IMG/VR virus record: IMGVR_UViG_3300043469_000452
Coordinates: 1 to 22,860 of that record
DNA from: a virus
Strand: one strand, 5' to 3'
DNA: 22,860 nucleotides
A program made the translations under genes and the position numbers. The notes under the pieces were generated by a model, which made no database searches, was not told where the DNA came from, and was given only the letters and a program-made list of their open reading frames with translations. Every line of letters starts with the position of its first letter. Within the stretch, counting starts at the first letter, position 1. This document shows positions 2,541 to 20,487 of the stretch, one piece after another.

Positions 2541-2744
2541 ATGCAAACAGTAAAACTAAAACCAACAATTCAGCTAAACGATAGCGAGTTACTAGACCTG
2601 ACATTCACAGTTGAAACAGGCGTGTATGAAGTAGTACACACGTTTCCTAAAGGCAACACAGTCCGACACGTAAGCAATCAGGAATCAACAGCTATTGAGA
2701 AATTTAATGAGATTTGTAAAAACTATAATGTAAAAGTAAAATGA
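2541..2744 (+). CDS. Hypothetical protein, 67 aa
   Basis: A 67-residue soluble protein with alternating polar and hydrophobic residues suggesting beta structure. ATG 2541 is preferred over the in-frame TTG at 2535, because TTG 2535-2537 is part of the promoter -7 element. The stop overlaps ATG 2741 of the next gene as ATGA, so the two are translationally coupled. No family is recognised. Confidence 0.65.
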   Translation: MQTVKLKPTIQLNDSELLDLTFTVETGVYEVVHTFPKGNTVRHVSNQESTAIEKFNEICKNYNVKVK

Positions 2745-3013
2745 AAAAAAATCAAATATTAAAATCGGTACTCATGGTAGTGCTTATCAAATTTATCATG
2801 GTGCTAGGTGCAGTATTCGTGGTGACTATGTTACTCAATGGATATGTAGATAATCCAAATGCATTGTTTATAGTGGCTGCTTGCTTCGCATTCATGCCTC
2901 TATTCGCTGCATTATCACGATTAGTAGAAACACTTCAGAATATTATAAACCTTCGTGAGAACATCGCTAAAGCGGTTAAAAACGAAAACAAAGAGTACAG
3001 GGATAGTCTATAA
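2741..3013 (+). CDS. Small inner-membrane protein, two transmembrane helices
   Basis: A 90-residue protein with a basic N-terminus (MKKNQ), a hydrophobic segment at about residues 8-33, a short polar loop with YVDNPN and a second hydrophobic segment at about 41-60. A charged, probably helical C-terminal tail of 30 residues follows. The topology suggests N and C termini in the cytoplasm. It is not placed in the lysis cluster, so a holin role is unlikely; an exclusion or membrane-anchoring role is possible but unproven. It is coupled to the upstream gene by ATGA. Confidence 0.65.
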   Translation: MKKNQILKSVLMVVLIKFIMVLGAVFVVTMLLNGYVDNPNALFIVAACFAFMPLFAALSRLVETLQNIINLRENIAKAVKNENKEYRDSL

Positions 3014-3781: not shown

Positions 3782-4279
3782 ATGGAAAAATGGAAACAAA
3801 TAACATACGCTAAACTATATGAGGTTAGCGATTGTGGTAATATCAGGAGGATAGGTACTACAAAAAATTTAAAAGGGTCAAAGACTGGCACAAGGGGTGG
3901 AGTTCAAAGATATAAGTGCCATGGGATAATTGACAATAATGGTAGGCGCACATTCAATATGACACATAGAATAGTTGCAATGCATTTTTTGCCAAACCCA
4001 TTAAACCTACCTCAAGTAAATCATATAGACGAAGACAAAAAAAATAATAGTTTGAGTAATTTAGAATGGGTTTCAAACAGAGAAAACTCAAGGCATTCTA
4101 ATAAAAGAAAAATAAAACAATTGGATATGCAAGGTAATTTAATAAAAATTTGGGGGTCTTTATATGAAATTGGGGATAGCGGATTTAATAAGCCACAAGT
4201 GTCTATGTGTTTAAATAAAAGGTTTAATTCAGGATATTTAGTAACACACCATAAAAATTTTAAATGGGAATACTTATAA
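3782..4279 (+). CDS. HNH homing-type endonuclease with NUMOD4 domain
   Basis: A 165-residue protein. An N-terminal NUMOD4 element (EKWKQITYAKLYEVSDCGNI, residues about 2-21) precedes an HNH_3 core with VNHIDEDKKNNSLSNLEWVS and the following NRENSRHS. A C-terminal NUMOD1-like DNA-binding part starts KIKQLDMQGNLIKIW. Such enzymes nick or cut DNA and often spread as free-standing homing genes. ATG 3782 is chosen because the in-frame TTG at 3776 is part of the -7 element. It separates terS from terL and ends one base before the terL start. HNH proteins beside terminase genes can take part in packaging in some phages, but the NUMOD layout fits a homing enzyme better. Confidence 0.9.
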   Translation: MEKWKQITYAKLYEVSDCGNIRRIGTTKNLKGSKTGTRGGVQRYKCHGIIDNNGRRTFNMTHRIVAMHFLPNPLNLPQVNHIDEDKKNNSLSNLEWVSNRENSRHSNKRKIKQLDMQGNLIKIWGSLYEIGDSGFNKPQVSMCLNKRFNSGYLVTHHKNFKWEYL

Positions 4280-4280
4280 G

Positions 4281-5459
4281 ATGTTTATCAGGACAACCGC
4301 AATAAATAAACTATTAAAGCTATCTAAGCGTATCAAGATTATAAGAGGCGGAACGAGTGCGGGTAAGACTTTTGGGATTTTGCCAATACTGATTGACAGG
4401 GCAACCAAACAAGCGGGTTTGGAAATATCGGTAGTAGCCGAAACAATCCCACATTTAAGGCGTGGTGCAATCAAAGACTTTCTAAAAATAATGCAGCAAA
4501 CAAACCGATTCTTTGACCAGAATTGGAATAAGACATTACTTACCTACAAGTTTGCAAATGGTTCATTCATTGAGTTCTTTAGTGCCGAGCAACCCGATAA
4601 ACTAAGAGGGGCAAGACGCAATATCCTATACATTAACGAGTGCAACAATGTTGACTTTGAATCCTACTCACAGTTAGCTATAAGGACATCAAATGAAATT
4701 TGGTTGGACTATAACCCCGTATCGGAGTTTTGGGTTGATAGTGAATTGCTAAACACATCAGACAAAGACGTGCAGCTACTTGTATTGACTTATAAAGACA
4801 ATGAGGCACTTGAACCTTCAATTGTTAAAGAGATTGAAAAGGCAAGAGATAAAGCAGCTACGTCTGACTATTGGCGTAATTGGTGGGCTGTTTATGGATT
4901 AGGCCAAATCGGAAAGGTTGACGGATTAGTGTTTACAGATTGGTCACAAATCGAAACAATACCAACAGGAGCGAAGTATATCGGAACGGGGATGGACTTT
5001 GGGTTTACGAATGATCCAACAACTGTCATTGATGTTTATTCACAGGATGGCAAATTGATAGTTGATGAAGTTGTTTATGAAACGGGTTTAACCAATCAAG
5101 CCATTTACAATCGGTTAAAAGATGAACCGAGATATAAACAAAAGTACATCATTGCAGATAGCGCAGAACCTAAGTCAATAGCAGAACTTCAAGCAATGGG
5201 ATTATCTGTATTAGGTGCTGATAAAACAGGAGGTATCAACTCAACTATTGATGTTTTGCAGCGTTATCACATTCAAATAACGCAAAGGTCAGTAAACACA
5301 ATAAAAGAGTTTAGGTCTTATAAATGGCAGACCGATAACCAAAACAAGGTAACGAATAAACCAATTGACCACATGAACCATGCTATTGACGCTTTGAGGT
5401 ATTGCGTTGGGTATTACATTCGCTCAAAGGGTGCAACTAAATCATTTGGTAGTTTTTAA
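4281..5459 (+). CDS. terL: Terminase large subunit
   Basis: A 392-residue packaging ATPase-nuclease. Walker A is GGTSAGKT at residues 23-30. A Walker B-like strand ILYINE ends at the catalytic Glu120, with Asn119 in the place often held by Asp. The C-terminal RNase H-like nuclease has MDFGFTNDPT (Asp239), IIADSAEP (Asp293) and HMNHAIDALRY (Asp370), giving the expected acidic triad. It cuts concatemeric DNA and pumps it into the prohead through the portal. ATG 4281 lies one base after the HNH stop, so the two are probably translationally coupled. The next gene starts after a 48-bp gap with a palindrome and a -7 element. Confidence 0.95.
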   Translation: MFIRTTAINKLLKLSKRIKIIRGGTSAGKTFGILPILIDRATKQAGLEISVVAETIPHLRRGAIKDFLKIMQQTNRFFDQNWNKTLLTYKFANGSFIEFFSAEQPDKLRGARRNILYINECNNVDFESYSQLAIRTSNEIWLDYNPVSEFWVDSELLNTSDKDVQLLVLTYKDNEALEPSIVKEIEKARDKAATSDYWRNWWAVYGLGQIGKVDGLVFTDWSQIETIPTGAKYIGTGMDFGFTNDPTTVIDVYSQDGKLIVDEVVYETGLTNQAIYNRLKDEPRYKQKYIIADSAEPKSIAELQAMGLSVLGADKTGGINSTIDVLQRYHIQITQRSVNTIKEFRSYKWQTDNQNKVTNKPIDHMNHAIDALRYCVGYYIRSKGATKSFGSF

Positions 5460-5460
5460 A

Positions 5461-5503
5461 ATGATATCATAAATCTATAATAGACATTTAAATTTTAATT
5501 TTG
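5461..5503 (+). promoter_or_regulatory. Tail-operon promoter with upstream palindrome ATGATATCAT
   Basis: The palindrome ATGATATCAT is at 5461-5470, within AAATGATATCATAAA at 5459-5473, which is repeated exactly at 12934-12948. A -7 element TAATTTTG lies at 5496-5503, 25 bp after the palindrome, and ATG 5508 follows 4 bases later. There is no TTG at the normal -33 position. If transcription starts about 5 bases after the element, the palindrome is centred near -42. Confidence 0.55.
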
Positions 5504-5507
5504 TTTT

Positions 5508-5978
5508 ATGCTAAGAATCACATTTGAAACGATTTCAGGGGAGCAGAAAGAAATAGAAGTACCAACAACATGGAGTGACATAACATGGACTAGGTTTGTT
5601 GAATTGGATAATATGAAGTTTGAAAATGAGATTGAAAGGCTATCTGCGTTTTCAGGTGTGAATATTAATCTGTTGATGAATAATTTATCATTGATTAGTA
5701 CATTATACACAGCTTGTCAATTCATGTACGATGACTTGACTGAGTTTATGTATTGCAAACAAAAGTATAAGACCTTTGAAGTAGCAAGTGATGATTGGGG
5801 AAAGATTGAAACGGCAAAGAAAGCCATGCTAGTTGAAGGAAATTGGTCAGGCGGTAGTGAGGTTGTGAAGTTGTATGCGGATGAGGACATAAGTAACAAA
5901 CCATGTACTGAGGCAATTGGAGTTGTCGCTTTTTTTTTGAACAAATTCAACGATTTTTTGAGCAGTTCAAAGACTTAA
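5508..5978 (+). CDS. Tail assembly chaperone-like protein, zero-frame product
   Basis: A 156-residue protein beginning MLRITFETISGEQKEIEVPTT that is not recognised by a strong motif. Two points suggest a tail assembly chaperone (lambda G-like). It lies among tail genes, and its frame ends (5976-5978) shortly after a run of nine T at 5930-5938, past which the -1 frame stays open for another 90 codons. The short zero-frame tail after the T run reads LNKFNDFLSSSKT. It is the first gene behind the palindrome promoter. Against the call, it is separated from the tape measure gene by four other genes, whereas chaperone genes normally sit next to it. Confidence 0.7.
   Translation: MLRITFETISGEQKEIEVPTTWSDITWTRFVELDNMKFENEIERLSAFSGVNINLLMNNLSLISTLYTACQFMYDDLTEFMYCKQKYKTFEVASDDWGKIETAKKAMLVEGNWSGGSEVVKLYADEDISNKPCTEAIGVVAFFLNKFNDFLSSSKT
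5930..5936 (+). promoter_or_regulatory. Candidate -1 ribosomal frameshift site T_TTT_TTT
   Basis: Zero-frame codons at 5931 and 5934 are both TTT and are preceded by T5930, the classical X_XXY_YYZ heptamer inside a T9 run. A slip back by one base enters the open -1 frame. TTTGAAC (5936-5942) and GTTCAAA (5965-5971) are perfect inverted repeats, but the stem would start inside the site, too close for a typical stimulator. Confidence 0.55.
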
Positions 5979-6208
5979 ACGGCAGCGATGTAGATGAAGA
6001 TGAGATTGCAGCAGGTGTAGAAAGGTTAAACGTTTTCGGGGTGTTCGCTACAATGGACACTTTGACTAATGGTGACTTATTGCTACATGATAAGTATTGG
6101 AAATTGCCTGCTCAATTAGTCTATACGAAATTGTTATACGATAAAAAGGTAAGGGATTTTCAAAAAGACTTAACTAAAATAAAAGAATTGAATGCTAAAC
6201 ACAAATGA
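5936..6208 (+). CDS. Tail assembly chaperone-like, -1 frame extension (GT-like)
   Basis: After a -1 slip at the T9 run the frame reads on from 5936 for 90 codons to TGA 6206-6208. It includes an acidic DVDEDEIAAGVERL segment and a C-terminal part with DKYWKLPAQLVYTKLLYDKK. This looks like real coding sequence: amino-acid use is balanced and it fills the otherwise empty 5979-6191 gap. The fusion protein would be about 233 residues. There is no good early start for separate translation; the first in-frame ATG is near 6053. The alternatives are transcriptional slippage on the T run, or a homopolymer sequencing error. It overlaps the next gene by 17 bases. Confidence 0.6.
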   Translation, partial: FEQIQRFFEQFKDLNGSDVDEDEIAAGVERLNVFGVFATMDTLTNGDLLLHDKYWKLPAQLVYTKLLYDKKVRDFQKDLTKIKELNAKHK

Positions 6209-6695
6209 CGTTTTAAATAAGGTAGGCCAAAGATTAGTTGAAAAAATTAAGGCTGCTTTGAGCGAAAAGGATTTGACTGGTTACGGGCCGAGTGTGGCAA
6301 CAGGCAACCTTATAAACTCCATTCGTTATGAAGTGGATAGTCAAGGCGTGACAGTGTTTGGGTTAAAGTATATCGGGGCTTTAGAAAACGGCCGCAAACC
6401 AACGGAAAACGGTGGCAACGGGGAACTTAGGGCGAAGATAAGACAATGGATTGATGTGAAGGGGATAGAACCAGATGGGATAAGTAAGGACAGTTTAGCG
6501 TATCTTATTACTCGTAAGATTCACAGAGAGGGTACAAGCATCTATCAAAGGAATAACGGTGAAAGTAGCGGGTTGTTAGATGATGTTTTGACGGATCAAA
6601 CTATAAAAGAATTAAGTCAGGAATTAATGTTTGCATACGTTACCGATATTAAGAGCGAAGTGAGAAAAGAAATACCAATTAAAATGTTAGCATAA
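6192..6695 (+). CDS. HK97 gp10-like tail completion / head-tail joining protein
   Basis: A 167-residue protein with the gp10-family pattern. An N-terminal helix is followed by ATGNLINSIRYEV and a strand-turn GVTVFGLKYIGALENGRKP. The middle part is ELRAKIRQWI, then AYLITRKIHREGTSIYQ. Members help complete the tail or join it to the head. The start overlaps the frameshifted chaperone end (stop 6208), and its TAA overlaps the next start as TAATG. The family call is from motif memory. Confidence 0.7.
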   Translation: MLNTNDVLNKVGQRLVEKIKAALSEKDLTGYGPSVATGNLINSIRYEVDSQGVTVFGLKYIGALENGRKPTENGGNGELRAKIRQWIDVKGIEPDGISKDSLAYLITRKIHREGTSIYQRNNGESSGLLDDVLTDQTIKELSQELMFAYVTDIKSEVRKEIPIKMLA

Positions 6696-7471
6696 TGAGT
6701 GCAGTCACAACTTTAACAAGGCCGAGTGAATGGGAATCCGTTTATAATCCGTATCTGATTTATAACTTTTACTTGAATTATACAGCAGGCATATTTGATT
6801 TATTGGTTACAACGGGCAAGGTTACTGTTTTACTTTCACCTATGGGCATATTTAAGGTAAACGATATATTCACATTTACACATTCAGCAAATCAATACTC
6901 AGTAAGGATAACTAAAGAGGCAACTCTTACAAGTGGTGCTGAGGGTGTGTTTATCTATGGAAGTTTAGCGAATGCAACCTATACGAATAAAACAATTGAG
7001 GCCACAACGTTTGAGCCTTTGGAGTTAGTTTTAAAAGCAGGTCATTTGAGTACCGATTTGACATTAACTGAAATAGCAAGGTTTAAAGCAATAGCACGAA
7101 AAGAGGCATTAAACCCGTTGTCATTTCCTTACATCAATAAATATACAGTAGATGTCAATGGATATTTGCAGGACTTTTTTAGGAACATACAACCTCCTCC
7201 GATAACAGCAGCATTGGTTGTATCAACAGGGAATCGAATAGATGACAAACCTTTGTATTGCCAATATCAATTATACTATGTGTATGCAGGAATTGAGCAA
7301 CCATTAGGAGGGTGTTACAATTCGATTTATTCATGTGTTGAAAATATAAATGCAAGTGGATATGTAACGGCATTGAACGCTTTAAGAGTTGGGAATGTTG
7401 ACGGGTTTCCTGCATACACGTCTTTATACTCTCAATTAGTTGGTAGCAGATTAAATACAAGTAAGATATGA
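6695..7471 (+). CDS. Tail structural protein, unknown (258 aa)
   Basis: A 258-residue protein beginning MSAVTTLTRPSEWESVYNPY. It looks beta-rich, with many aromatic residues, and has FPYINKYTVDVNGYLQDFF near residue 150. No signal peptide. Its place between the gp10-like gene and large tail-tip proteins, and overlap with both neighbours (TAATG before, ATGA after), point to a distal tail or baseplate part. I do not recognise a named family. Confidence 0.6.
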   Translation: MSAVTTLTRPSEWESVYNPYLIYNFYLNYTAGIFDLLVTTGKVTVLLSPMGIFKVNDIFTFTHSANQYSVRITKEATLTSGAEGVFIYGSLANATYTNKTIEATTFEPLELVLKAGHLSTDLTLTEIARFKAIARKEALNPLSFPYINKYTVDVNGYLQDFFRNIQPPPITAALVVSTGNRIDDKPLYCQYQLYYVYAGIEQPLGGCYNSIYSCVENINASGYVTALNALRVGNVDGFPAYTSLYSQLVGSRLNTSKI

Positions 7472-8385
7472 GAAGTTTTTGTTTTAGGGGTGTCGGGGAT
7501 GATGTTACATTTACACCAAGCTATCCATTTGGGGCAACTGATTTTGAGATATTGGATAATACGTTTCCATCATCAAGTGTAAACAATACGACTGGTGAAG
7601 TTAGTTTAGATATTGACCTTGTCAATCCTGGTATTTACTACATCACAATAAAATACACAATAGGCGAAACAGACTATTATTTTAGTGAGCAAATAATTAT
7701 AACTAGTTGTGAGGTTCAGTTGTTGCAGGATGAAATAAGTATTTGTGCTAATGGGCCATACTTGTATTTTCAAATGTCATTTGTAGGGGGTGAAACTTAT
7801 GATGATTTTGAATATATTTCAACAACATTAAGCGGTGATGTTGGTATTTCTGAAAACGGGCTTATTCATGTTAAGGGTTCAATAGAGGAAGTAGGCCCTC
7901 AAGATTTCGTATTCAGTGCAGGTGACACTGAGTTCACTCTAACCGTAAACGTAGTAAGTTGTCCAACGCCTACCGTTTCGGCTATAACAGAATGTCAAAA
8001 AGATGTTATCGGAATAGTATGGGTAAATCAAGAGGGTGGCCGTCAATCGTATTGGTTTGGTCAGGTTAAGGATTTCAAGATTAACCAACAAGGGGGCAAG
8101 ACTTATGAAAATAGTTCAAAAGAATTAAGGTACTTTGACAAAGGCCGTGTATCGAATGGAGTTAATATATTTCAGGAGTTTATACCACTTGAACACGTTA
8201 CTGCAATAGCTAGTCTTAAGAATAGCATTCAGGCGTGGGCGTGTACTAACATTGAAGAGTTTAGCACATATAAGGCAATAATTATAGATGAGGATTCATG
8301 GGTATTGCGAAGGACTAATGACAGATTTTACAGTGCTGCATTTCAGTTTGAATATGCAAAAGAGATAACCATTCAAAGACAATGA
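7468..8385 (+). CDS. Tail-tip/baseplate-like protein with Ig-like N-terminal region
   Basis: A 305-residue protein. The first ~170 residues look like one or two beta-sandwich repeats (for example PGIYYITIKYTIGETDYYF and the similar Ig-like tract ending EFTLTVNVVSC). The C-terminal ~130 residues hold IVWVNQEGGRQSYWFGQVK and WACTNIEEFSTYKAIIIDED, a compact domain that fits virion tail-tip proteins. The gene begins in an ATGA overlap with its upstream neighbour and ends in one with the next gene, so it is part of the continuous tail operon. A receptor-binding role is possible but not shown. Confidence 0.6.
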   Translation: MRSFCFRGVGDDVTFTPSYPFGATDFEILDNTFPSSSVNNTTGEVSLDIDLVNPGIYYITIKYTIGETDYYFSEQIIITSCEVQLLQDEISICANGPYLYFQMSFVGGETYDDFEYISTTLSGDVGISENGLIHVKGSIEEVGPQDFVFSAGDTEFTLTVNVVSCPTPTVSAITECQKDVIGIVWVNQEGGRQSYWFGQVKDFKINQQGGKTYENSSKELRYFDKGRVSNGVNIFQEFIPLEHVTAIASLKNSIQAWACTNIEEFSTYKAIIIDEDSWVLRRTNDRFYSAAFQFEYAKEITIQRQ

Positions 8386-10292
8386 CAGAACTATACATCA
8401 ATGGTATATTAGTTGATTTGGATGATGTTATTGCACTCAGTAAAGCAATAAACGATTTAGGTCAAATTGAATCTAGAGAGGGCGAATATTCAAATACGAT
8501 TGAATTGAATATGACTAAAACTAATTGTAACGCATTAGGCCACATTCAAGATATAAACAGCATTTCACAAATCACAAAACAAAATAACACGTTTGAGATT
8601 TATGATGATGGGATTTTAGTTACGAATGGAATTGCTAGGGTGTTATCTGTTTCAGATACATTTGAAGTTCAACTGTATGGAAGTAACAGCGATTGGTCAA
8701 TATTGATTGAAAACAAGTCATTGCGTGAATTAGACTTTAGCGATTTAAACTACAATCTAACCTATCCAAATGTAATTGCAAGGCGTTTATTATTGGCTGA
8801 CTTATGTTGCCCGAATGTTTGGTATGGTGCATTTTTCGCAGCGCCTACTCAATGGACACCTTTAGACTTTTTACCAGCTATTTATTTCCCACAAATATTT
8901 GAAAAGATATTTACTCAGATTGGATTTACACTTGACATGAACTTGTCAACATTGAATCAGACTTTGTATAATAAATTGATACCGATATTTTCACATAGGA
9001 AATTACCACAAGGGAACGAGGGAATTGAATTTAAGGGAACATTCACAGCAGCCGATAACGGGGGAGCAGGTTATACGTTATCACCTGTTTATTTGGGTGG
9101 CGATTATTGTGAATACATTTCAGACTACACTATTTTATCAAACGGGTTTCCATTGACGGGTAAAGGCGTAAGTTTCGTTTCAGGTGCAAGTCCTTCGATT
9201 GATAGTATTACAGATGTTTGTCAAAGGCTAGTTGGTTACGTTTCATTTACGATAACAGCACAAGCAGCACCATATGATGTTGAATTAAGAGCAGCAGGCG
9301 TAACAGCTATTGGAGCAGTTGAAGTATTCGCAGCAGGAACTTATAGAATAGATTTTGATGTTACAAATCCAGACCAAATATTCTCACCTCATTTAGTATT
9401 TACAGGAACTTTGTCAGGCAATTACAGAATAGTAGGAGGCGAATTTACTTTTTATAATCGTGATGCTGTGAGGTCATCAGTTAGATGGGATGGCACTAAT
9501 GAGTTTGTAGTTCATGCTTCACAATCTTTGCCCGATATTAAGCAGTCAGAATTTTGTCAAACTGTTTTTTCATTGTTCGGTTTAGTAAGTACAACAGATA
9601 CGATACTAAAAAAAGTAACAGTAAATGAACTTGACAAGATTATTGCAGACATACCAAACGCTGAAGATTGGTCAAACAAAATAGACTTAAGTGAGGACAT
9701 TGAAATACTATTCGATTTTTGGGACGACTACTTTAGACGTAACAACTTTATTTATAAAAATGATGATAAGGACTTACTTGTTGCAGGTAGTGGCTTAGGT
9801 GATGGGTATATTGATTATGATAGTAATTATGTAGACCAAGAAGGTGAAGTAATTGAATTGCCATTCAGTGCAATTGCTAGGGATGAAAGTTTAACACCTG
9901 ATTTGGCTTCATGTAGTTCACGTTTCTATGGTGACTTAAATTGGAAAATAGGTTACACAACTGTAACGGCTAACAACCTCATCACAATGAATGGACAAGC
10001 AGCACCAACACAATCGCTTGAAGTATTCTTTGATGATTTGCACTTTAATATTTTGATTGAAAGAAATTACAAGCTATTAAAGAAAGCATTGGAAAACAGT
10101 ATAGCTGCAAAGGTTTTGTTTCGTTTAACGAGGTTTGATTATGAAAGCATGGATTTTACTAAGCCTATATTTTTAAACGTTCAAACAAAAAGAAACGGCC
10201 TTTTAAGAGGGCATTTCTATGTTAATAAGATTGAGCAGTATATCGTTGGTGAATTTGATTCATGTTGGGTTACGTTAATAAAAATTGATTAA
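8382..10292 (+). CDS. Large tail-associated protein (baseplate hub-like)
   Basis: A 636-residue protein starting MTELYINGILVDLDDVIALS. The N-terminal region with GQIESREGEYSNTIELNM resembles the start of Bacteroidota phage tail-tip or hub proteins. The middle is beta-rich and may include a jelly-roll-like insert (about residues 200-370). The C-terminal part returns to mixed alpha/beta with FDFWDDYFRRNNFIYKN. No peptidase motif is obvious. It is one base apart from the tape measure gene (stop 10292, ATG 10294), placing it at the tail tip module. The exact homologue is not named. Confidence 0.6.
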   Translation: MTELYINGILVDLDDVIALSKAINDLGQIESREGEYSNTIELNMTKTNCNALGHIQDINSISQITKQNNTFEIYDDGILVTNGIARVLSVSDTFEVQLYGSNSDWSILIENKSLRELDFSDLNYNLTYPNVIARRLLLADLCCPNVWYGAFFAAPTQWTPLDFLPAIYFPQIFEKIFTQIGFTLDMNLSTLNQTLYNKLIPIFSHRKLPQGNEGIEFKGTFTAADNGGAGYTLSPVYLGGDYCEYISDYTILSNGFPLTGKGVSFVSGASPSIDSITDVCQRLVGYVSFTITAQAAPYDVELRAAGVTAIGAVEVFAAGTYRIDFDVTNPDQIFSPHLVFTGTLSGNYRIVGGEFTFYNRDAVRSSVRWDGTNEFVVHASQSLPDIKQSEFCQTVFSLFGLVSTTDTILKKVTVNELDKIIADIPNAEDWSNKIDLSEDIEILFDFWDDYFRRNNFIYKNDDKDLLVAGSGLGDGYIDYDSNYVDQEGEVIELPFSAIARDESLTPDLASCSSRFYGDLNWKIGYTTVTANNLITMNGQAAPTQSLEVFFDDLHFNILIERNYKLLKKALENSIAAKVLFRLTRFDYESMDFTKPIFLNVQTKRNGLLRGHFYVNKIEQYIVGEFDSCWVTLIKID

Positions 10293-10293
10293 T

Positions 10294-12582
10294 ATGGAAG
10301 AGACTATAATTTACAGGATTGAGATTGACCAAGAGCAGTATATTAAGGATATTGTCGATGTTAAAAAACAGATTGACACATTAACTCAAAAACAAAAAGA
10401 ACTTGACACAACAACTCAAGAGGGCGCAATAGCATATCAAGAGAACGCAGCGTCTATTCGTGCTTTAAAGGCCGAGCAAACGCAATTGAGTAAAGTAATT
10501 GATAATTCCATAATCACTAGAAATAAAGAAATAAAATCAATCAATGAAGCTAGGGCAAATGTAAAGTTATTAACTAAGCAAAGAAATGAACTTGATATAT
10601 CAACTGAAACAGGGCGTAAGAAATTAGAAGAGTTAAACGGTGCATTGGATAAAAACAACAAGTTTATAAAAGACAATGTAGACCAATATACTCAGCAAAA
10701 AATAAACATTGGAAACTACGCAAGCGCATTGCAAGGATTAGGTGGGCCGTTGGGAAATTTCGTGGGTAAGCTATCCAATTTAAAAGATGGATTGGAACAA
10801 ACTAAAAAAGGAATTGACGTAAGCAAAGCAGGTTTTAGTGGGTTCAATGGAGTTATCAAAGCTAGTGCGATTGGTGTATTAATTACTTTAGTTGGTGGGC
10901 TTATTGCAGCGTTCACAAAGTTTGAACCGTTAATGGATAAACTAAAAGCAGCGTTTGCAGGAATCAATGCAGTTGTTGATGTGTTTGTTGAACGTATGAC
11001 TAGAGTGGGGCGTGGGTTAGCTGAAATAATGCAAGGCAACTTTTCTGAGGGTATAGACCAAATAAGAAATTCATTTGATGGGATGGCTGCGCAAATGGAG
11101 GCAAGCGCAAAAGCCGCATATGATTTAAGTGAGGCATTAGATGCGATTGAAGATAGACAAAGAGCACAAATAATCATTAACGCAGAGGTAAGTAAACAAG
11201 TTGACCAATTACTTTTACAATCTAAAAACAGGGCATTAAGTGAAAAGGAAAGATTGGCCTTGTTAGATCAAGCGGGTAAACTTGAAAGGGCGAATTTTGA
11301 GCAAGAGAAAAAACTGTCTCAGGATTCTTACAACAACTATCTTGAAACAGTAAGACTAAAAACGCAGCTATCTAAAGAGGAACTAGAGGAACTATTAACC
11401 AACACTAATAGACGTGAGGAATTAGAGAAAAGAATCGGAACGGTGCAGGGCGAAGAGTTGGACAAGTTAGCTAACATGAAAGCAGCACAGATACAACTTG
11501 AAAGCGAAACTATAAACGTAGAGGAGAAGATTGCAAATAGGCGTTCACAGTTATTAGAGAAAGAGCAGGCCGAAAGAGATAAGCGTCAAAAGGAACGTGA
11601 GGCAAAAGAAAAGAAAGCAGCAGATGACGCACTAAAAGCCCAACAAGAACGTTTCAAAAGACAGCAGGCAATATTTGACCAAACGAATGAATACATTGCA
11701 CAAAAGAATCAAGAACAACTAGACGAGATTACTTTTGTAGAGAATGAAAAACAGTTGAAATTAGTCGAAGGTTTGATTTCTCGAAATGTAACACAGCAAC
11801 AATATGATGCAGCGTTGTTACAGATTAAGTCTGATTCATTAGCAGCCGAGCGTGAGTTATTGATTAAGAACGGTGAAGATACCACAGCTATTGATTTAGA
11901 GATTGCTGAAAATAAATTAGCTATTCAGAAGAAATCAGAAGAGGACACTAAAAAAATAAATGATGCCACACTACAAGCTAATATTCAAGCAGCACAAGCA
12001 GCTCAGGGTATTATAGCTGAAACGGCAGCATTAGCAGAAGGTAATAATCAATTAGCAAAAGCAGCAGCGTTGGCAAATGTAGGTGTAAACTTAGGTACTG
12101 CAATTGCAAACTTGACGGCCACAACATCAGCACCAACACCTGACAATTTAGTGACGGGTGGTGTGAGTGGATTCATAAAATATGCAACGGGGATAGTTCA
12201 AATATTATCAGCAGTAAATCAAGCACGTTCATTGATTGGAGGTGCAGCAGCAGGGGGAGGTTCATTCAGGACTAAAGGCCCGACTATGTTATTAGTTGGT
12301 GACAATCCGGGCGGAGTTGAAGAGATAAACGTTAAACCAATTTCAGGACGTGGCAAAACAGTTGTTAATCCAAAAGGTAATTTAGTGAAGATGGCAGGAG
12401 GTGGCACTATGATAGCAGATGGAGGAGCGAGTGCAAACAGAGCAAGTAGTGCAACAGTTGCACAGTTCAATATGTTGGAAATGTTAAAGAGAATACCAGC
12501 ACCTGAGTTGAAGATAACTGAATTAAACAGAGTTCAAAAGAACGCATCTAAAGCAGTTAAAGTGTCATCGCTAGGGCGTTAA
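10294..12582 (+). CDS. Tail tape measure protein
   Basis: A 762-residue protein that sets tail length and leaves the tail during DNA entry. ATG 10294 is preferred over TTG 10285, which overlaps the preceding gene. Residues 1-150 are charged coiled coil (DTLTQKQKELDTTTQEGAI). A hydrophobic segment, ASAIGVLITLVGGLIAAF, lies at about 190-207. A long Lys/Glu/Gln-rich coil at about 290-560 is followed by Ala-rich helices and a Gly-rich C-terminal domain starting GGAAAGGGSFRTKGPTM. At about 0.15 nm per residue the tail would be near 115 nm (inference). It ends tail-to-tail with the minus-strand gene, overlapping it by 12 bp. Confidence 0.9.
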   Translation: MEETIIYRIEIDQEQYIKDIVDVKKQIDTLTQKQKELDTTTQEGAIAYQENAASIRALKAEQTQLSKVIDNSIITRNKEIKSINEARANVKLLTKQRNELDISTETGRKKLEELNGALDKNNKFIKDNVDQYTQQKINIGNYASALQGLGGPLGNFVGKLSNLKDGLEQTKKGIDVSKAGFSGFNGVIKASAIGVLITLVGGLIAAFTKFEPLMDKLKAAFAGINAVVDVFVERMTRVGRGLAEIMQGNFSEGIDQIRNSFDGMAAQMEASAKAAYDLSEALDAIEDRQRAQIIINAEVSKQVDQLLLQSKNRALSEKERLALLDQAGKLERANFEQEKKLSQDSYNNYLETVRLKTQLSKEELEELLTNTNRREELEKRIGTVQGEELDKLANMKAAQIQLESETINVEEKIANRRSQLLEKEQAERDKRQKEREAKEKKAADDALKAQQERFKRQQAIFDQTNEYIAQKNQEQLDEITFVENEKQLKLVEGLISRNVTQQQYDAALLQIKSDSLAAERELLIKNGEDTTAIDLEIAENKLAIQKKSEEDTKKINDATLQANIQAAQAAQGIIAETAALAEGNNQLAKAAALANVGVNLGTAIANLTATTSAPTPDNLVTGGVSGFIKYATGIVQILSAVNQARSLIGGAAAGGGSFRTKGPTMLLVGDNPGGVEEINVKPISGRGKTVVNPKGNLVKMAGGGTMIADGGASANRASSATVAQFNMLEMLKRIPAPELKITELNRVQKNASKAVKVSSLGR

Positions 12583-12789
12583 ATATTTGGTAGTTGAATC
12601 TATTATCTCATCCACTTGCTTGTTTTTAGTTGCAAGCATTTCGTGATATATTTCATCTCTACTAACGCCTCTTTGATTGGCGACCATTTCTGCAACGTAT
12701 AGCATTATCACATCCACACTTGCACGAGTTGAAATAGCACTTATGAGCGTTTCAGATGTGAAGTCTATTTTTAGAATGTCATTGCTCAT
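12571..12789 (-). CDS. Small unknown partner of the ribbon-helix-helix protein
   Basis: A 72-residue protein starting MSNDILKIDFTSETLISAIS, with a helical middle (VDVIMLYVAEMVANQRGVSRDE) split over two helices and a basic/polar end. It starts in an 11-bp overlap with the stop of the upstream minus-strand gene, so the two are translationally coupled. No toxin family is recognised and the length and charge give no firm hint. It could be a co-regulator, an anti-regulator or a toxin-like partner. The end overlaps the tape measure gene by 12 bp. Confidence 0.65.
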   Translation of the reverse strand: MSNDILKIDFTSETLISAISTRASVDVIMLYVAEMVANQRGVSRDEIYHEMLATKNKQVDEIIDSTTKYLTP

Positions 12790-12925
12790 TTAAATACTTT
12801 TTAGCTAATTGCACAAGGGCCTTATTCATTGATAAGCCTTTTTCATTGCATTTCTTTTTGAAATCAGATTTTAACTTATGATGAAACCTGACTATTAATG
12901 TTGATTCAATTTTTTCTCGTGTCAT
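12779..12925 (-). CDS. Ribbon-helix-helix (Arc/CopG-like) DNA-binding protein
   Basis: A 48-residue protein: MTREKIES, the strand TLIVRFHHKL, then helix SDFKKKCNEKG, turn and second helix SMNKALVQLAKKYL. This strand-helix-helix plan and length fit the Arc/CopG fold, which dimerises and places the paired strands in the DNA major groove at palindromes. ATG at 12925-12923 is chosen over a longer reading to 12967 because that would include the promoter and palindrome. The palindrome ATGATATCAT (12936-12945) lies 10 bp upstream of its start and is the obvious candidate operator. It is one of only two minus-strand genes in the window. Confidence 0.75.
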   Translation of the reverse strand: MTREKIESTLIVRFHHKLKSDFKKKCNEKGLSMNKALVQLAKKYLNEQ

Positions 12926-12935
12926 TGAAATATAA

Positions 12936-12978
12936 ATGATATCATAAAACAAATATAGTATTATCAAAATTAAATTTG
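12936..12978 (+). promoter_or_regulatory. Head-operon promoter with upstream palindrome ATGATATCAT
   Basis: The palindrome is at 12936-12945, inside AAATGATATCATAAA (12934-12948). A -7 element TAAATTTG is at 12971-12978, 25 bp after it, the same spacing as at 5461-5503. No TTG is at the expected -33 position. The first shared 13 bases of the gap also include C at base 5 and ATAG at bases 10-13. ATG 12994 follows 15 bases after the element. Confidence 0.55.
12950..12957 (-). promoter_or_regulatory. Minus-strand -7 element TATATTTG for the ribbon-helix-helix operon
   Basis: CAAATATA on the + strand is TATATTTG on the minus strand. Its presumed start site, about 5 bases downstream, falls at the edge of the palindrome 12936-12945, so a protein bound there should block this promoter. 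It lies 13 bp from the divergent + strand -7 element. Confidence 0.5.
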
Positions 12979-12993
12979 TATATAATTATTCAC

Positions 12994-14130
12994 ATGGCAG
13001 AATTAAATATTTTCGGTCAAATCGGTAAAACAGCATCAGACGAAGATGTTGTTGAATCATTCACAGCAGTTGACATGGCTGTTTTTTTGTCTGCTAACAA
13101 CATGGATAGTTCACACACTATCAATATAAAGTCAGGCGGGGGATATGTTGAGGAGGGCTTTGAGATTTATGATATGTTGCGTTCAAGTGGTAAACACATT
13201 ACAACCATAGCACAACAAGCAGATTCAATTGCAAGTGTTATATTTTTAGCAGGTGACATTCGTAAGATGTCAAAGAATGCAAAACCGCTTATTCACTTTC
13301 CTTTTTTAGAAAACTTTTTCATTGATAGGGCAACCGCTCAAGACTTTGCCGAAATACACAAGGGAATCAAATCACTTGAGAATAAAATACTATCAATATA
13401 CATAGAGCGTACAGGTGCGAACAAACAGACACTTGAACTAATCATGTCAAAGAACGAAAGCATTGATGCAACTTTATTTCATAAACTCGGTTTTGCAACT
13501 GAGTTAACTGATAGTGAAGTTGTCAATCAATATAAAGCAATCGCAAAATCAATAAATAATAATTCACAAATGGACAAAAAAGAGTTAACCTCATGGCTTA
13601 CTAAATTGGAAGACATGATTAAAAACCTCGTTAAATCGAAGGTTAAAAATTTAGCTATAATGCTAGAAGATGGATCAACAGTAGTACATATTCAAACAGA
13701 AGAGGAATCAGCAAAAGTTGGTGACACTGTATGGATGGATGAAGAGTACACGGTGGCAGCACCTGACGCAACTCACGTTTTAGAAAACGGTTTGCAAGTG
13801 GTAACAATTGACGGTGTAATTACCGAAATCATTGAGCCTATGGCAAAGAAAGATGATGAAGATGTTGAAGCATTGAAAGCCGAAAACGAAACTTTGAAAG
13901 CCGAGATTGAAACATTGAAAGCATCTAAAGCAGAAGCCGAAAACAAGTTGCAATCATTTGCTAAAGCTAAAGCCGAGAATGAGAAATCATTGTCAGCAGT
14001 AAAAGCAGAATTTGAAAAGTTGCAAGCAATGGTACTTGACATTAAAGATGAAAAGAACGAATTGCCTGTAAGCAAAGCACAAGAAGATTTGGAGTACAGA
14101 CGTAAACTGAGAAACATTAACAGAGCGTAA
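12994..14130 (+). CDS. Prohead protease (ClpP/S14-like) fused to a scaffold-like coiled coil
   Basis: A 378-residue protein; ATG 12994 is used because an upstream TTG at 12976 falls in the -7 element. Residues 1-190 are a ClpP-like fold. INIKSGGGYVEEGFEIYDML precedes QQADSIASVIFLAGD with probable catalytic Ser78, and PLIHFPF with His101; the third triad member is not assigned. Residues about 195-285 form a linker domain. Residues about 288-350 are a strong Glu/Lys/Ala coiled coil (ALKAENETLKAEIETLK) typical of a scaffold or delta region. Together they would direct capsid assembly, then be cleaved. It is the first gene behind the divergent promoter and precedes the capsid gene. Confidence 0.85.
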   Translation: MAELNIFGQIGKTASDEDVVESFTAVDMAVFLSANNMDSSHTINIKSGGGYVEEGFEIYDMLRSSGKHITTIAQQADSIASVIFLAGDIRKMSKNAKPLIHFPFLENFFIDRATAQDFAEIHKGIKSLENKILSIYIERTGANKQTLELIMSKNESIDATLFHKLGFATELTDSEVVNQYKAIAKSINNNSQMDKKELTSWLTKLEDMIKNLVKSKVKNLAIMLEDGSTVVHIQTEEESAKVGDTVWMDEEYTVAAPDATHVLENGLQVVTIDGVITEIIEPMAKKDDEDVEALKAENETLKAEIETLKASKAEAENKLQSFAKAKAENEKSLSAVKAEFEKLQAMVLDIKDEKNELPVSKAQEDLEYRRKLRNINRA

Positions 14131-14316: not shown

Positions 14317-15489
14317 ATGAAAAAAACAATCCTCTCAATCCTTGTAACATTGCTAAGTGCAGTTGTACTTGGTAGCGTGGTTGCTCCCTTCATTGGAGTT
14401 GATGCCAATGTCGTTATCGGAGTAACATTTTTTAGTGCATTTGCTTTATCAATTGCATTTCCTAAGTTATCACAAACAGTTAACAACTTGACCTATTCTC
14501 CTATTCAGTTTCTAGGGCCATTCTATGAGGAAATCATGAATGAGATTCTATACATGAATGGAACAGTAAGCGGAGGTCTTGTAAGATTTATTGACAGTTT
14601 AAATACTGAAACTGTAATCACAGAATCAAACATTACAGGAGCAGAACAAGCATACGTAGAAACCCCAGCAGGAACTGAATCATCAGGCTCATTAACTTTC
14701 GCAGATAAGATTTCAAGACCTTTTCAGTTTATGATTTACGAAAGGTTTTCACCTAATTCGTTTAGATTTACTAGATTCGCAAAACCAAACGGAAGTGATA
14801 CAGCATTCCCTAAAGTTACAGACGAGTTTGCAAGATTCGTTTTAGATAGATTTGGTAAATTAGAATCACAAAAAATGGAAGCTAGATTTTGGAACGGTGC
14901 AACGGCAGCCACAGCAGTAGCAGCAGCAGCATTAACACCCGGAACAGGTCAAAACGCAATTGGTGCAGCAGAACAAACATACATTGCAGCAGCTCCTGTA
15001 ACATTGATAGATGGTATATTGACTAAATTAATCATGTCATTTAGTGTGACTAAGAGGCGTATCAAAGTAGCAGGAACACCATTGACATCATCAAACATTG
15101 CAACAGAAGTCGCTAAAGTTTACGCAGCAATCTTGCCACAATTGTTACAACCTGCATACTCAGAAGAAATCACAATGTTTATGCCTCATAACTGTAAGCA
15201 GTTAATCAACGCGTTCAACCTTGCAGCAACATACAGAGATTTGTTCACAGTAGACAACGGTAAATACTACTATGGAGGTGTTAAGATTGAGTTTGTACCA
15301 TTGCCAAACAATGCAATTATATGCGGTAAGAAATCAGATTTAATTTGGGCTTGTGACATCACAGATGCAACAGCTAATTTGAAGATTGATTTTATTGCAA
15401 ATGATTCTGAGCAAATGTTTATCAAAGGGCCATACACTCAAGAAAGTGCATTTGTTCAAGCTCAGCAGTTTGTTGTTTACGTAGGTTAA
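14317..15489 (+). CDS. Major capsid protein with hydrophobic N-terminal extension
   Basis: A 390-residue protein placed directly after the protease-scaffold gene, with a plausible HK97-type layout. TFADKISRPFQFMIYERF fits an early structural strand, and later parts include PFQF-like, EEITMFMPHNCKQLI and a C-terminal GPYTQESAFVQAQQFVVYVG. Unusual is the first ~50 residues, with two hydrophobic stretches (about 5-25 and 31-49) that look like membrane helices or a signal peptide. It could be a delta-like region removed by the protease or a temporary membrane anchor. Start ATG 14317 is 1 bp after the previous stop. Confidence 0.8.
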   Translation: MKKTILSILVTLLSAVVLGSVVAPFIGVDANVVIGVTFFSAFALSIAFPKLSQTVNNLTYSPIQFLGPFYEEIMNEILYMNGTVSGGLVRFIDSLNTETVITESNITGAEQAYVETPAGTESSGSLTFADKISRPFQFMIYERFSPNSFRFTRFAKPNGSDTAFPKVTDEFARFVLDRFGKLESQKMEARFWNGATAATAVAAAALTPGTGQNAIGAAEQTYIAAAPVTLIDGILTKLIMSFSVTKRRIKVAGTPLTSSNIATEVAKVYAAILPQLLQPAYSEEITMFMPHNCKQLINAFNLAATYRDLFTVDNGKYYYGGVKIEFVPLPNNAIICGKKSDLIWACDITDATANLKIDFIANDSEQMFIKGPYTQESAFVQAQQFVVYVG

Positions 15490-18548: not shown

Positions 18549-19171
18549 TGGAAGCGATCATAGCTAAAACAGATTTGAATATGTGTCCTCGTTGGAGTGA
18601 CAACATTAAAGATGAATGGATTAATCCGCTTTTAAGCCAAGCGTGCGAGTATTCATTTTATGACACTATTAGTCAAAGTCTGTATAATGCTATGCTTACA
18701 TTTTACAATGAGTGGGATGAGAATGTATTCGACTTAGCTGATTCATATGTATTGAATGATTATACTTTATATTCAGGTAGTATCTACAAATGTATATTAG
18801 GTTACTCAGGGCCAACAACAGACACGCCTCCACAAGACCCTACACATTGGGAAATTAATGAACTAGGCAATTTTTACTATCAATTTGCAAGGCCGTATTT
18901 GGTTTATAAAGCCTATCAAAAATTCTTGCTATGGCATGGGAAACACATTGCACAAAGCGGATTTAGAAAGCATACGGATAATACTTCATTTGAAATTAGT
19001 TCAGATGAGCTAGGTTATATTATGGGAGATGTGCGAGGTGTTATTTCGGTAAAAGAAACAAAGATGCTGAATGAATTAAATACTAAAGATTATACATTCG
19101 ACACGGTTGTATATTTAAAGAATGAGAACGTAAAAGAAAGCAGGGGAGGTATTCAAATATTCGGGGTATGA
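18548..19171 (+). CDS. Head-tail connector / adaptor-like protein with CBM-like insert
   Basis: A 207-residue protein directly after the portal, where the adaptor is expected. It resembles DUF6712-type Bacteroidota phage proteins: N-terminal DEWINPLLSQACEYSFYD and a C-terminal helical region with KAYQKFLLWHGKHIAQSGF. Residues about 60-104 carry a separate small module with SYVLNDYTLYSGSIYKCI, then PPQDPTHWEI. That Y-x-G-x-x-Y ... P-x-x-W pattern resembles carbohydrate-binding modules of families 5/12. The stop overlaps the next start as ATGA (19168-19171). Confidence 0.65.
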   Translation: MEAIIAKTDLNMCPRWSDNIKDEWINPLLSQACEYSFYDTISQSLYNAMLTFYNEWDENVFDLADSYVLNDYTLYSGSIYKCILGYSGPTTDTPPQDPTHWEINELGNFYYQFARPYLVYKAYQKFLLWHGKHIAQSGFRKHTDNTSFEISSDELGYIMGDVRGVISVKETKMLNELNTKDYTFDTVVYLKNENVKESRGGIQIFGV

Positions 19172-20487
19172 CATACAGTGAAGTAGTTACATTAATTGAA
19201 CAAGTCGCAAACACCGTTAACGCTAATGGTGTTTTTTTTCATGGGCGAAATTATGATACTTCATTAGAGTATGGTGATGTGTTTCCTCAAATTCAATTAT
19301 ACCCATTTACGCAAGATAACTTTGGCGATAATTTCAAAAGAAATAATTTACTCATATCGTTTTTGATTGAGGATTCTCACGATTATACATTAGCACAACG
19401 GCAAGCATTGATAAATCAAATGGATGTTTTGTCATTAGCATTTGAAACAGTTTTAAGAACACAAACAGTACAGATTGAAACCATAAGGCGTGAACCTCAA
19501 TTCATGACTTTGATGGGAAACTTGACAGGGATAGCAATGAGAATATCATTACTTACACCTGACTTATGCGCTGCACCTGTACCGACATCACCAGTCAACA
19601 CAGTAGCACCTACTATTTCACCGAGTGGAGTTCAACCTGTTGGAACTTTATTTACTGCAAGCGTTGGAACGTGGGTGGGGACTTTGCCTATTACTTATGA
19701 ATATAGATGGACACGAAACGGAACGCCTATTAATTTGGCTACCAATTCCACTTATACGAGTGTGAATGCGGATGAAGGTAGTACGATTAGGTGTGAAGTA
19801 AGGGCAACAAATGACTATGGAACTTCAAGTTATGTGGCAAGTAGTAATTCATCATTGTGCGGAGCGGTACCAGTGAACACAGTAGCCCCTGTAATAAGCG
19901 GAAATACTACTTTAGGTAGTACATTAACAACAACAAATGGAACGTGGACAGGAACGGCAACAATTACTTTTGGTTATCAGTGGAAACGCAATGGAACTAA
20001 TATCAATGGAGCGACTAATTCAACTTATGTATTAGCTGTTGCTGATAGTGCTGCAAGTATTACGTGTCAAGTTACGGGAACTAATTCAATAGGTACGGGA
20101 AATGCTACATCAAACACGATAATGGCAGGGAATTATGCACCTTCAAACACGGTCGCACCTACATTAAGTCCGAGCGGTTCACAAGTTACGGGAACGGTTA
20201 TCACATTGGGCAATGGAACATGGAGTGGTGCAAGCCCGATAACATATGAATACAGATGGACTAGGGATAACGTGGTAATTAGTGGCGAAACTGCAAACAC
20301 TTACACTATATTAGCAGGTGACGATGGAACGGTAATTAAAGGACAAGTAAGGGCTACAAATGCAGCAGGTGTAAGTTCATATGTAACAACTTCAAATCAA
20401 GTTGATGCGGTGAATGCGGTCACTTTGGTTTGGGGAACAGCATCACCACAAAATTGGGGAACAGCAACAGCAAGTAATTGGGGATAA
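19168..20487 (+). CDS. Tail terminator/neck-like protein fused to three Ig-like repeats
   Basis: A 439-residue protein. Residues 1-140 (MTYSEVVTLIEQVANTV; FPQIQLYPFTQDNFGD) form a compact domain that, by position after the connector, could be a tail terminator or neck protein. Three Ig-like repeats of about 90 residues follow, starting at residues 143, 236 and 326. Each has NTVAP, GTW(V/T/S)G, a YRW/YQW-x-R strand and an (A/G)TN end. A short tail with TLVWGTASPQNWGTATASNW closes the protein. The repeats probably project from the virion and may bind glycans or the cell surface. A fusion of neck-like and Ig-like parts is unusual but the frame is unbroken. Confidence 0.7.
   Translation: MTYSEVVTLIEQVANTVNANGVFFHGRNYDTSLEYGDVFPQIQLYPFTQDNFGDNFKRNNLLISFLIEDSHDYTLAQRQALINQMDVLSLAFETVLRTQTVQIETIRREPQFMTLMGNLTGIAMRISLLTPDLCAAPVPTSPVNTVAPTISPSGVQPVGTLFTASVGTWVGTLPITYEYRWTRNGTPINLATNSTYTSVNADEGSTIRCEVRATNDYGTSSYVASSNSSLCGAVPVNTVAPVISGNTTLGSTLTTTNGTWTGTATITFGYQWKRNGTNINGATNSTYVLAVADSAASITCQVTGTNSIGTGNATSNTIMAGNYAPSNTVAPTLSPSGSQVTGTVITLGNGTWSGASPITYEYRWTRDNVVISGETANTYTILAGDDGTVIKGQVRATNAAGVSSYVTTSNQVDAVNAVTLVWGTASPQNWGTATASNWG
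19594..20400 (+). repeat. Three tandem Ig-like coding repeats (93 and 90 codons apart)
   Basis: Homologous segments begin near 19594, 19873 and 20143 and share the encoded NTVAP, GTW-x-G and TN motifs. The DNA copies are diverged, with repeats 1 and 3 the closest pair by eye (both encode PSG, PITYEYRWTR and GVSSY/GTSSY). Confidence 0.75.

Follow-up and report, generated by a model that had tools for sequence, protein, structure and literature searches.

Viral ribbon-helix-helix (RHH) proteins are known as regulators in archaeal viruses, e.g. SvtR of SIRV1 and AvtR of AFV6, and for AvtR, repression of its own gene as well as activation and repression of a neighbouring gene have been described (excerpts of PMC5569661). 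In Flavobacterium psychrophilum, the sigma-A promoter element TAnnTTTG spans positions −12 to −5, leaderless mRNAs amount to 5.5%, and CGT at −10 marks promoters of extracytoplasmic function (ECF) sigma factors (motif SM6) (excerpts of PMC9723704). Here we describe two identical palindromic boxes in front of the tail and head gene blocks of the virus record IMGVR_UViG_3300043469_000452. The record, called the window below, comprises 22,860 nucleotides (nt) and may be a fragment; the virus probably infects Bacteroidota bacteria.

Our best reading of the window is a matched pair of late promoters with an identical operator at −42.5 that respond to one phage regulator, most likely an RHH protein of 48 amino acids (aa); taken as a whole, this reading seems to us evenly balanced between right and wrong. 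Its central part, joint control of both structural operons, is very probable. Host RNA polymerase would read sigma-A type −7 elements, and one phage DNA-binding protein, most likely the RHH protein, would occupy both boxes; the tail genes (from 5508) and the head genes (from 12994) would thus be switched at the same time. By binding the right box, the RHH protein would also cover the start of its own gene, which would lead to autorepression and free the overlapping head promoter. For the structural promoters, we tentatively prefer activation over repression, which is not far behind, because the boxes are centred at −42.5, the spacing is repeated exactly and the tail promoter has no divergent gene to repress. 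The arrangement would substitute for a system of ECF-type sigma factor and matching promoters, which many relatives seemingly carry. Binding, the direction of control, the start sites and the replacement of a sigma factor are what we infer from the sequence. Among the papers found in searches on late or structural RHH activators, phage promoter motifs (TAnnTTTG included) and phage sigma factors, none describes such a system or late-gene timing in Bacteroidota phages in its title or abstract.

Two identical boxes ahead of the structural blocks

The 15-mer AAATGATATCATAAA has exactly two copies in the window and no third (coordinates in Table 1). With up to one mismatch, the 10-mer ATGATATCAT matches at two positions, which are the two boxes (shuffled sequences: 1.31 expected), so that the preliminary description was right to count two copies only; with up to three mismatches, the 15-mer has four matches, versus 3.47 expected. 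From the end of both palindromes, a gap of exactly 25 nt leads to a TAnnTTTG element, i.e. TAATTTTG ahead of the tail block and TAAATTTG ahead of the head block, precisely as had been reported. Over the 45 bases from box to element, 33 are identical between the two sites. Within the gaps, 14 of 25 positions agree, including AAA-N-C and ATAG, and the previously noted resemblance is real: pairs of 25-mers preceding the 38 TAnnTTTG matches of the window agree at 6.9 positions on average (standard deviation 2.26), and 3 of 703 such pairs, the box pair counted among them, reach 14.

On its own, a repeated palindrome of 10 bp is unremarkable. It arises in 1014 of 2000 first-order Markov sequences and is present in 22 of 161 related loci, and the window has another one, TGCAATTGCA. 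The related loci (L003-L082 and L281-L361) represent the best 80 of 84 terL relatives and the best 80 of 184 capsid relatives; they include one locus from the genome of a Chitinophagales bacterium, and a few contigs are in both sets. The number of TAnnTTTG elements in the window is likewise at chance level (38 versus 34.6 expected). In contrast, a repeat of at least 15 bp around a palindrome was found in 13 of 2000 first-order Markov sequences, and a repeated 10-bp palindrome with TAnnTTTG at one shared offset in none of 1500 Markov sequences. In viral contigs, the 15-mer occurs in at least 119 stretches, and none of the matches listed has TAnnTTTG at offset 25. The combination of palindrome, 25 nt and TAnnTTTG has 78 matches there, two of which (L242 and L261, with identical sequence) precede a gene start and fall outside reading frames of 80 codons or more.

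The sites of class II activators are centred near −41.5, and the predicted centre of both boxes is −42.5, since TAnnTTTG is taken as −12 to −5; this agrees with the earlier estimate of about −42. The start sites were predicted by applying the rule for TAnnTTTG from the excerpts of PMC9723704, which places them at 5508 for the tail block, at 12983 for the head block and at 12945 for the RHH gene. Position 5508 is the A of the ATG, 4 nt after TAATTTTG, so that the tail mRNA is probably leaderless. For the RHH gene, TATATTTG (12957-12950) predicts the start at 12945, and the right box would therefore cover +1 to +10. The positions of both −7 elements support their assignment, being those where promoters would be expected. 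TAnnTTTG begins 11 or 12 nt upstream of the ATG at 5 of 34 starts tested (expected: 0.05), a figure that flatters, because the selection of starts was manual and in part followed inspection of the elements, and three are not ATG. The head promoter is the exception, with TAnnTTTG 23 nt upstream of the ATG. A −7 element also precedes four genes upstream of terL. Inspection of both promoters revealed no TTG near −33, in accordance with the preliminary description; this absence is weak evidence and not decisive, because in Flavobacterium johnsoniae, too, such an element reportedly could not be identified (excerpts of PMC7366714).

Table 1. Coordinates of the boxes, promoter elements and genes of the window
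Feature	Position	Strand	Remarks
Left box AAATGATATCATAAA	5459..5473	+	palindrome 5461-5470; begins at the terL stop codon; leads the tail block
TAATTTTG, putative sigma-A type −7 element of the tail-block promoter	5496..5503	+	ATG 4 nt downstream
Right box AAATGATATCATAAA	12934..12948	+	palindrome 12936-12945; between long gene and head protease gene
TAAATTTG, putative −7 element of the head-block promoter	12971..12978	+	begins 23 nt before the ATG
TATATTTG, possible −7 element of the divergent RHH promoter	12950..12957	-	predicted +1 at 12945
Arc-like RHH protein, 48 aa, candidate box-binding factor	12779..12925	-	phrog_582
72-aa protein	12571..12789	-	overlaps the RHH gene; no family over the cut-off
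90-aa open reading frame	2741..3013	+	occupies the position of the L003 sigma-like gene; no Pfam match over the cut-off
HNH endonuclease	3782-4279		between terS and terL; HNH_3 over the cut-off, NUMOD4 slightly under
terL	4281-5459	+	box at its stop codon
Tail block, first gene	5508..5978	+	counterpart in L043 is a 251-aa open reading frame
Long gene	10294-12582	+	called tape measure by length and place; no PHROG match
Head block, first gene: Clp-type head maturation protease	12994..14130	+	PF00574, E-value 1.4e-15; phrog_94, E-value 1.2e-23
Portal gene	head block		phrog_11226
Capsid gene	14317-15489		named by place; PHROG match is a family of unknown function

The candidate regulator and rival explanations

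The long gene and the head protease gene are separated by a cassette of two minus-strand genes. One encodes the RHH protein and the other the 72-aa protein, and the latter gene meets the end of the long gene in convergent orientation. The RHH protein matches the profiles phrog_582 (E-value 7.3e-5), phrog_228 (0.0067) and phrog_3180 (0.04), all named "Arc-like repressor", and has weak matches to DinJ/RelB (0.14 and 0.054). That it is the box-binding factor is predicted from the palindrome at its own predicted start site, and we lean towards this assignment.

Several findings weigh against the proposed regulator. The RHH protein has no Pfam match over the cut-off, the best being Complex1_LYR (E-value 0.0098), followed by ParG, an RHH family (0.082). 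A single-sequence AlphaFold model of the monomer has helices at residues 3-28 and 33-47 and no N-terminal strand, and a structural search with it returned one PDB match with an E-value of 9.3 and nothing significant. Among the related loci, matches to the RHH protein are weak, none better than an E-value of 0.21, and the box is present in none of the 161. The profile phrog_582 was found in none of 18 records, and the protein in none of 395 genomes of the phylum of the Chitinophagales bacterium, in a search that was run without a positive control. In L043, a distant relative in the structural module, the tail promoter slot is without the box. Finally, repression is compatible with the same sites. 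When viral contigs were searched with peptide patterns of the RHH protein, of the first tail gene and of the protease, no relative of any of the three was confirmed.

Other possibilities were rejected as well. A type II toxin-antitoxin pair is disfavoured because the 72-aa partner matches no toxin family and the RelB_DinJ match of the RHH protein is far under the cut-off. A 49-aa basic open reading frame at 975-1124 looks RHH-like by eye alone and has no Pfam match; it is disfavoured as the factor because the sister phage L003 carries the matching DNA stretch (80%) but no box. The sole phage record with a match to the RHH protein at an E-value of 0.1 or less, MT835899, is GC-rich and has no box, and by eye the match lies in a DinJ/RelB-like gene of 85 aa.

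The best surviving rival, which we judge unlikely, makes the RHH protein a repressor of all three promoters that would keep the tail and head genes off until late and limit its own level. The name of its family, Arc-like repressor, would fit, as would the overlap of the right box with positions +1 to +10 of this promoter in the RHH gene, and SvtR is a viral RHH protein that represses its own promoter and also binds a structural-gene promoter (excerpts of PMC5569661). From −42.5, such a repressor would have to hinder the contact of the polymerase or spread along the DNA. This is an unusual position for simple repression, which counts against the rival, and the same spacing recurs at the tail promoter, where there is no divergent gene; contact with polymerase explains this more easily. 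The rivals are partly compatible with one another.

It is rather improbable that the boxes bind another factor, supplied by the host or encoded by the phage outside the record, and that the RHH gene is a mere neighbour. The possibly incomplete record leaves room for such a factor, and no conservation ties the RHH protein to the box. Against it, the box overlaps the predicted start of the RHH gene, as expected for an autoregulator, and the sister phage shares the early region without having the box. Parts of the early region are 80-93% identical in DNA between the window and L003, and terL is 83% identical up to base 5023; past terL, L003 has no DNA match to the window, and there is no box in its 33.5 kb. 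The factor therefore probably travels with the structural module. Because the DNA match ends inside terL, the structural modules of the two phages seem to have been parted by an exchange within this gene. The window terL is a mosaic, with 83% DNA identity to L003 at 4293-5023 and no DNA match beyond. The box as a module border for recombination was rejected, as the match ends near 5023 and not at the box.

Improbable to a greater degree is a copying event, in which the promoters are alike because a regulatory stretch was duplicated when the divergent cassette arrived before the head block, leaving one box without function. The likeness of 33 of 45 bases does exceed what a box needs, and L043 is without the divergent cassette. 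On the other side, the two sites agree fully within the box and less well next to it, suggesting that the box is under selection, and relatives also tend to have matched sequences at both junctions. A chance repeat of an AT-rich palindrome is highly improbable: such palindromes recur in about half of the Markov sequences, but with a shared TAnnTTTG offset in none of 1500, and both copies lie in gaps that lead structural blocks. Least probable of all is a role at the borders of the blocks as an RNA hairpin or terminator, which the palindrome behind the terL stop codon might suggest, as the palindrome is loopless and the copies fold differently (folding z-scores 1.14, 0.36 and 0.18). Avoidance of EcoRV sites was also discarded, the window having two GATATC versus 3.6 expected, which is not unusual.

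Matched junctions and sigma-like genes in relatives

The suggestion that one factor serves both operons fits the architecture of the window and the matched junctions of relatives, while no relative was found that keeps the box: the search of the related loci proposed in the preliminary description gave none, and L043 has the TAnnTTTG slot without it, where TATCTTTG is followed after 4 nt by the ATG of the corresponding tail gene. In L043, a methyltransferase-like gene lies between terL and this gene, and the genes from the long gene to the protease are co-directional, with no divergent cassette. A plus-strand gap longer than the 393 nt of the window was present in one of 34 relatives (L065, 706 nt).

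The gene order terminase, tail, long gene, head is kept in many relatives. Tail and head junctions of the same genome resemble each other more (mean 14.1) than those of different genomes (10.2), a difference reached in 0 of 20,000 permutations; the comparison covered 40 nt in 26 non-redundant loci of 43, and the permutations took no account of differences in base composition between the genomes. The own pair ranks first in 7 of the 26 loci and fourth or better in 15, and the own pairs of L005, L049, L052, L078, L356 and L353 rank from 15th to last. The window is at rank 9 of 26, as these 40 nt do not reach its box. Examples of elements shared by both junctions are TTAACGCTATA (L037), TTTAAACGTTAT (L308), CAATCGTTAATTA (L066), GATTGATATATACT (L072) and TTTATACTT (L003). 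Head junctions are enriched for a motif derived from the tail junctions (p 2.8e-4; 24 versus 133 sequences), but the four top head scores (L298, L360, L356 and L361) belong to T-rich stretches in other positions. A shared control of the two blocks thus fits the wider group, as relatives tend to have matched, genome-specific elements at these junctions.

In one large set of relatives, the element is the motif CGTTAT, which occupies the slot held by TAATTTTG in the window. Across the related loci, it stands exactly 6 nt before an ATG in 95 of 136 cases with a gene start within 24 nt; among unique sequences the value is 31 of 63, of which 22 remain after reduction at 85% identity. CGTTAT is present at both junctions in 9 of 27 loci with terL and capsid matches, belonging to about four lineages (L292, L308, L314, L321, L324, L325, L335, with one copy at 7 nt, L358 and L359). 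It might be a near-leaderless phage promoter with an upstream element. The motif at this spacing occurs at tail, head and later gene starts, and by eye an element such as GATACA or AACAAA lies upstream. The window has no exact case, and matches with one mismatch occur at chance number. Flavobacterium phage FPSV-S2 (terL 54%) has no CGTTAT 6 bases before any of ten starts inspected.

Many relatives also carry genes for ECF-sigma-like proteins near the terminase, e.g. L371, L372, L373, L374, L376, L377, L378, L379 and L003 (5265-5741), with lengths of 147-180 aa in those read out. Of 52 loci with at least 2.5 kb of sequence upstream of terL, 40 give a match in this region to a joint sigma model; 16 sequences went into the model, to which 9 of the positive loci contributed one each, and redundant loci were kept. 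The window and L043 are among the 12 of these 52 loci without a match. Of nine proteins compared with the sigma regions in Pfam, two exceed the cut-off for PF04542 and one for PF08281, and L370 matches no family; eight of nine match phrog_31712 (unknown function) or phrog_1740 (sigma factor). A profile of ten sigma-like proteins matches ECF sigma factors of solved structure (SigL over 147 positions, E-value 1.5e-7), and the profile of alignment A2 also matches such factors, with an E-value of 2e-4. The best Foldseek matches are ECF sigma factors (E-value 1.9e-4, template modelling scores 0.3-0.4), obtained with a model that has a predicted local distance difference test value of 69.7. In scans of records, A2 matched 30 of 50 and phrog_1740 17 of 50, while PF08281 alone matched 3 of 18, one of them over the cut-off. 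The sigma-like gene of L003 directly follows a homolog of window 2541-2744, and at this place the window has the 90-aa open reading frame of Table 1. None of A2, phrog_1740 and the joint model detects a sigma-like gene in the window.

The idea that the box and the RHH protein stand in for a sigma factor is opposed by several points. Taken by itself, the sigma-like protein of L003 matches no sigma family in Pfam. The lineage with the most CGTTAT (L308, L320 and L324) has no A2 match; phrog_1740 has weak matches in two of its three records, and the 140-aa open reading frame at the sigma position has no Pfam match. For the window itself, a sigma-like gene could lie outside, because the record may be a fragment. 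We therefore put forward only as a speculation, and one that we consider unlikely to hold in full, that a group of Bacteroidota tailed phages has paired near-leaderless promoters for tail and head genes that change by lineage together with a terminase-adjacent ECF-type sigma factor, and that here the sigma factor was lost and replaced by sigma-A promoters with RHH protein and box, the paired architecture being kept.

Further genes of the window and comparison with known systems

The HNH endonuclease gene has TAnnTTTG 11 nt upstream of its ATG. Compared with its counterpart in L043, the first tail gene shows a frame shift at a run of nine T, behind which the reading continues in another frame to 6208; tblastn matched the second part alone (6041-6208, 44%) in the L043 open reading frame, and the first part was matched by eye. 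This frame change at 5920-5950 may be an assembly error or a programmed frameshift. The first part of a 439-aa protein (19168-20487) resembles a 138-aa protein of L043 (35%, range taken by eye), and the rest consists of repeats that match tail and Hoc-like families.

For this one phage, the box pair is a concrete candidate for a switch. Among the relatives, there is a family of sigma-like proteins with several members in phrog_31712 and with a predicted cognate promoter pair for each protein. The specificity of regulator and promoter can thus be compared across lineages, and the pairs could become orthogonal promoters for the phylum.

Among phage systems, the Arc-type RHH repressors (phrog_582) are similar in that the candidate is a small RHH protein by profile with a possible operator at its own promoter, between divergent promoters. 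The window differs from these repressors, Arc and Mnt of P22 among them, by an identical second site at a distant structural block and an activator-like position of −42.5. The combination of a site at the own promoter with one at a structural-gene promoter, which is predicted here, is shared with SvtR; in contrast to the archaeal promoters of SvtR and AvtR, the window has promoters of the bacterial sigma-A type that lead two multi-gene blocks (compared with excerpts of PMC5569661).

With the sigma-A promoters of Bacteroidota, as characterized in excerpts of PMC9723704 and PMC7366714, the window shares the −7 element at both sites. Unlike them, it is without TTTG at −33 at both sites, and five of six elements are located 11-12 nt before the ATG, so that the transcripts would mostly be leaderless, compared with 5.5% in F. 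psychrophilum. The CGTTAT motif and the sigma-like genes of the relatives resemble the class of ECF-sigma promoters with a CGT box (excerpts of PMC9723704), whereas the window has neither and instead presents its candidate RHH protein and the paired boxes.

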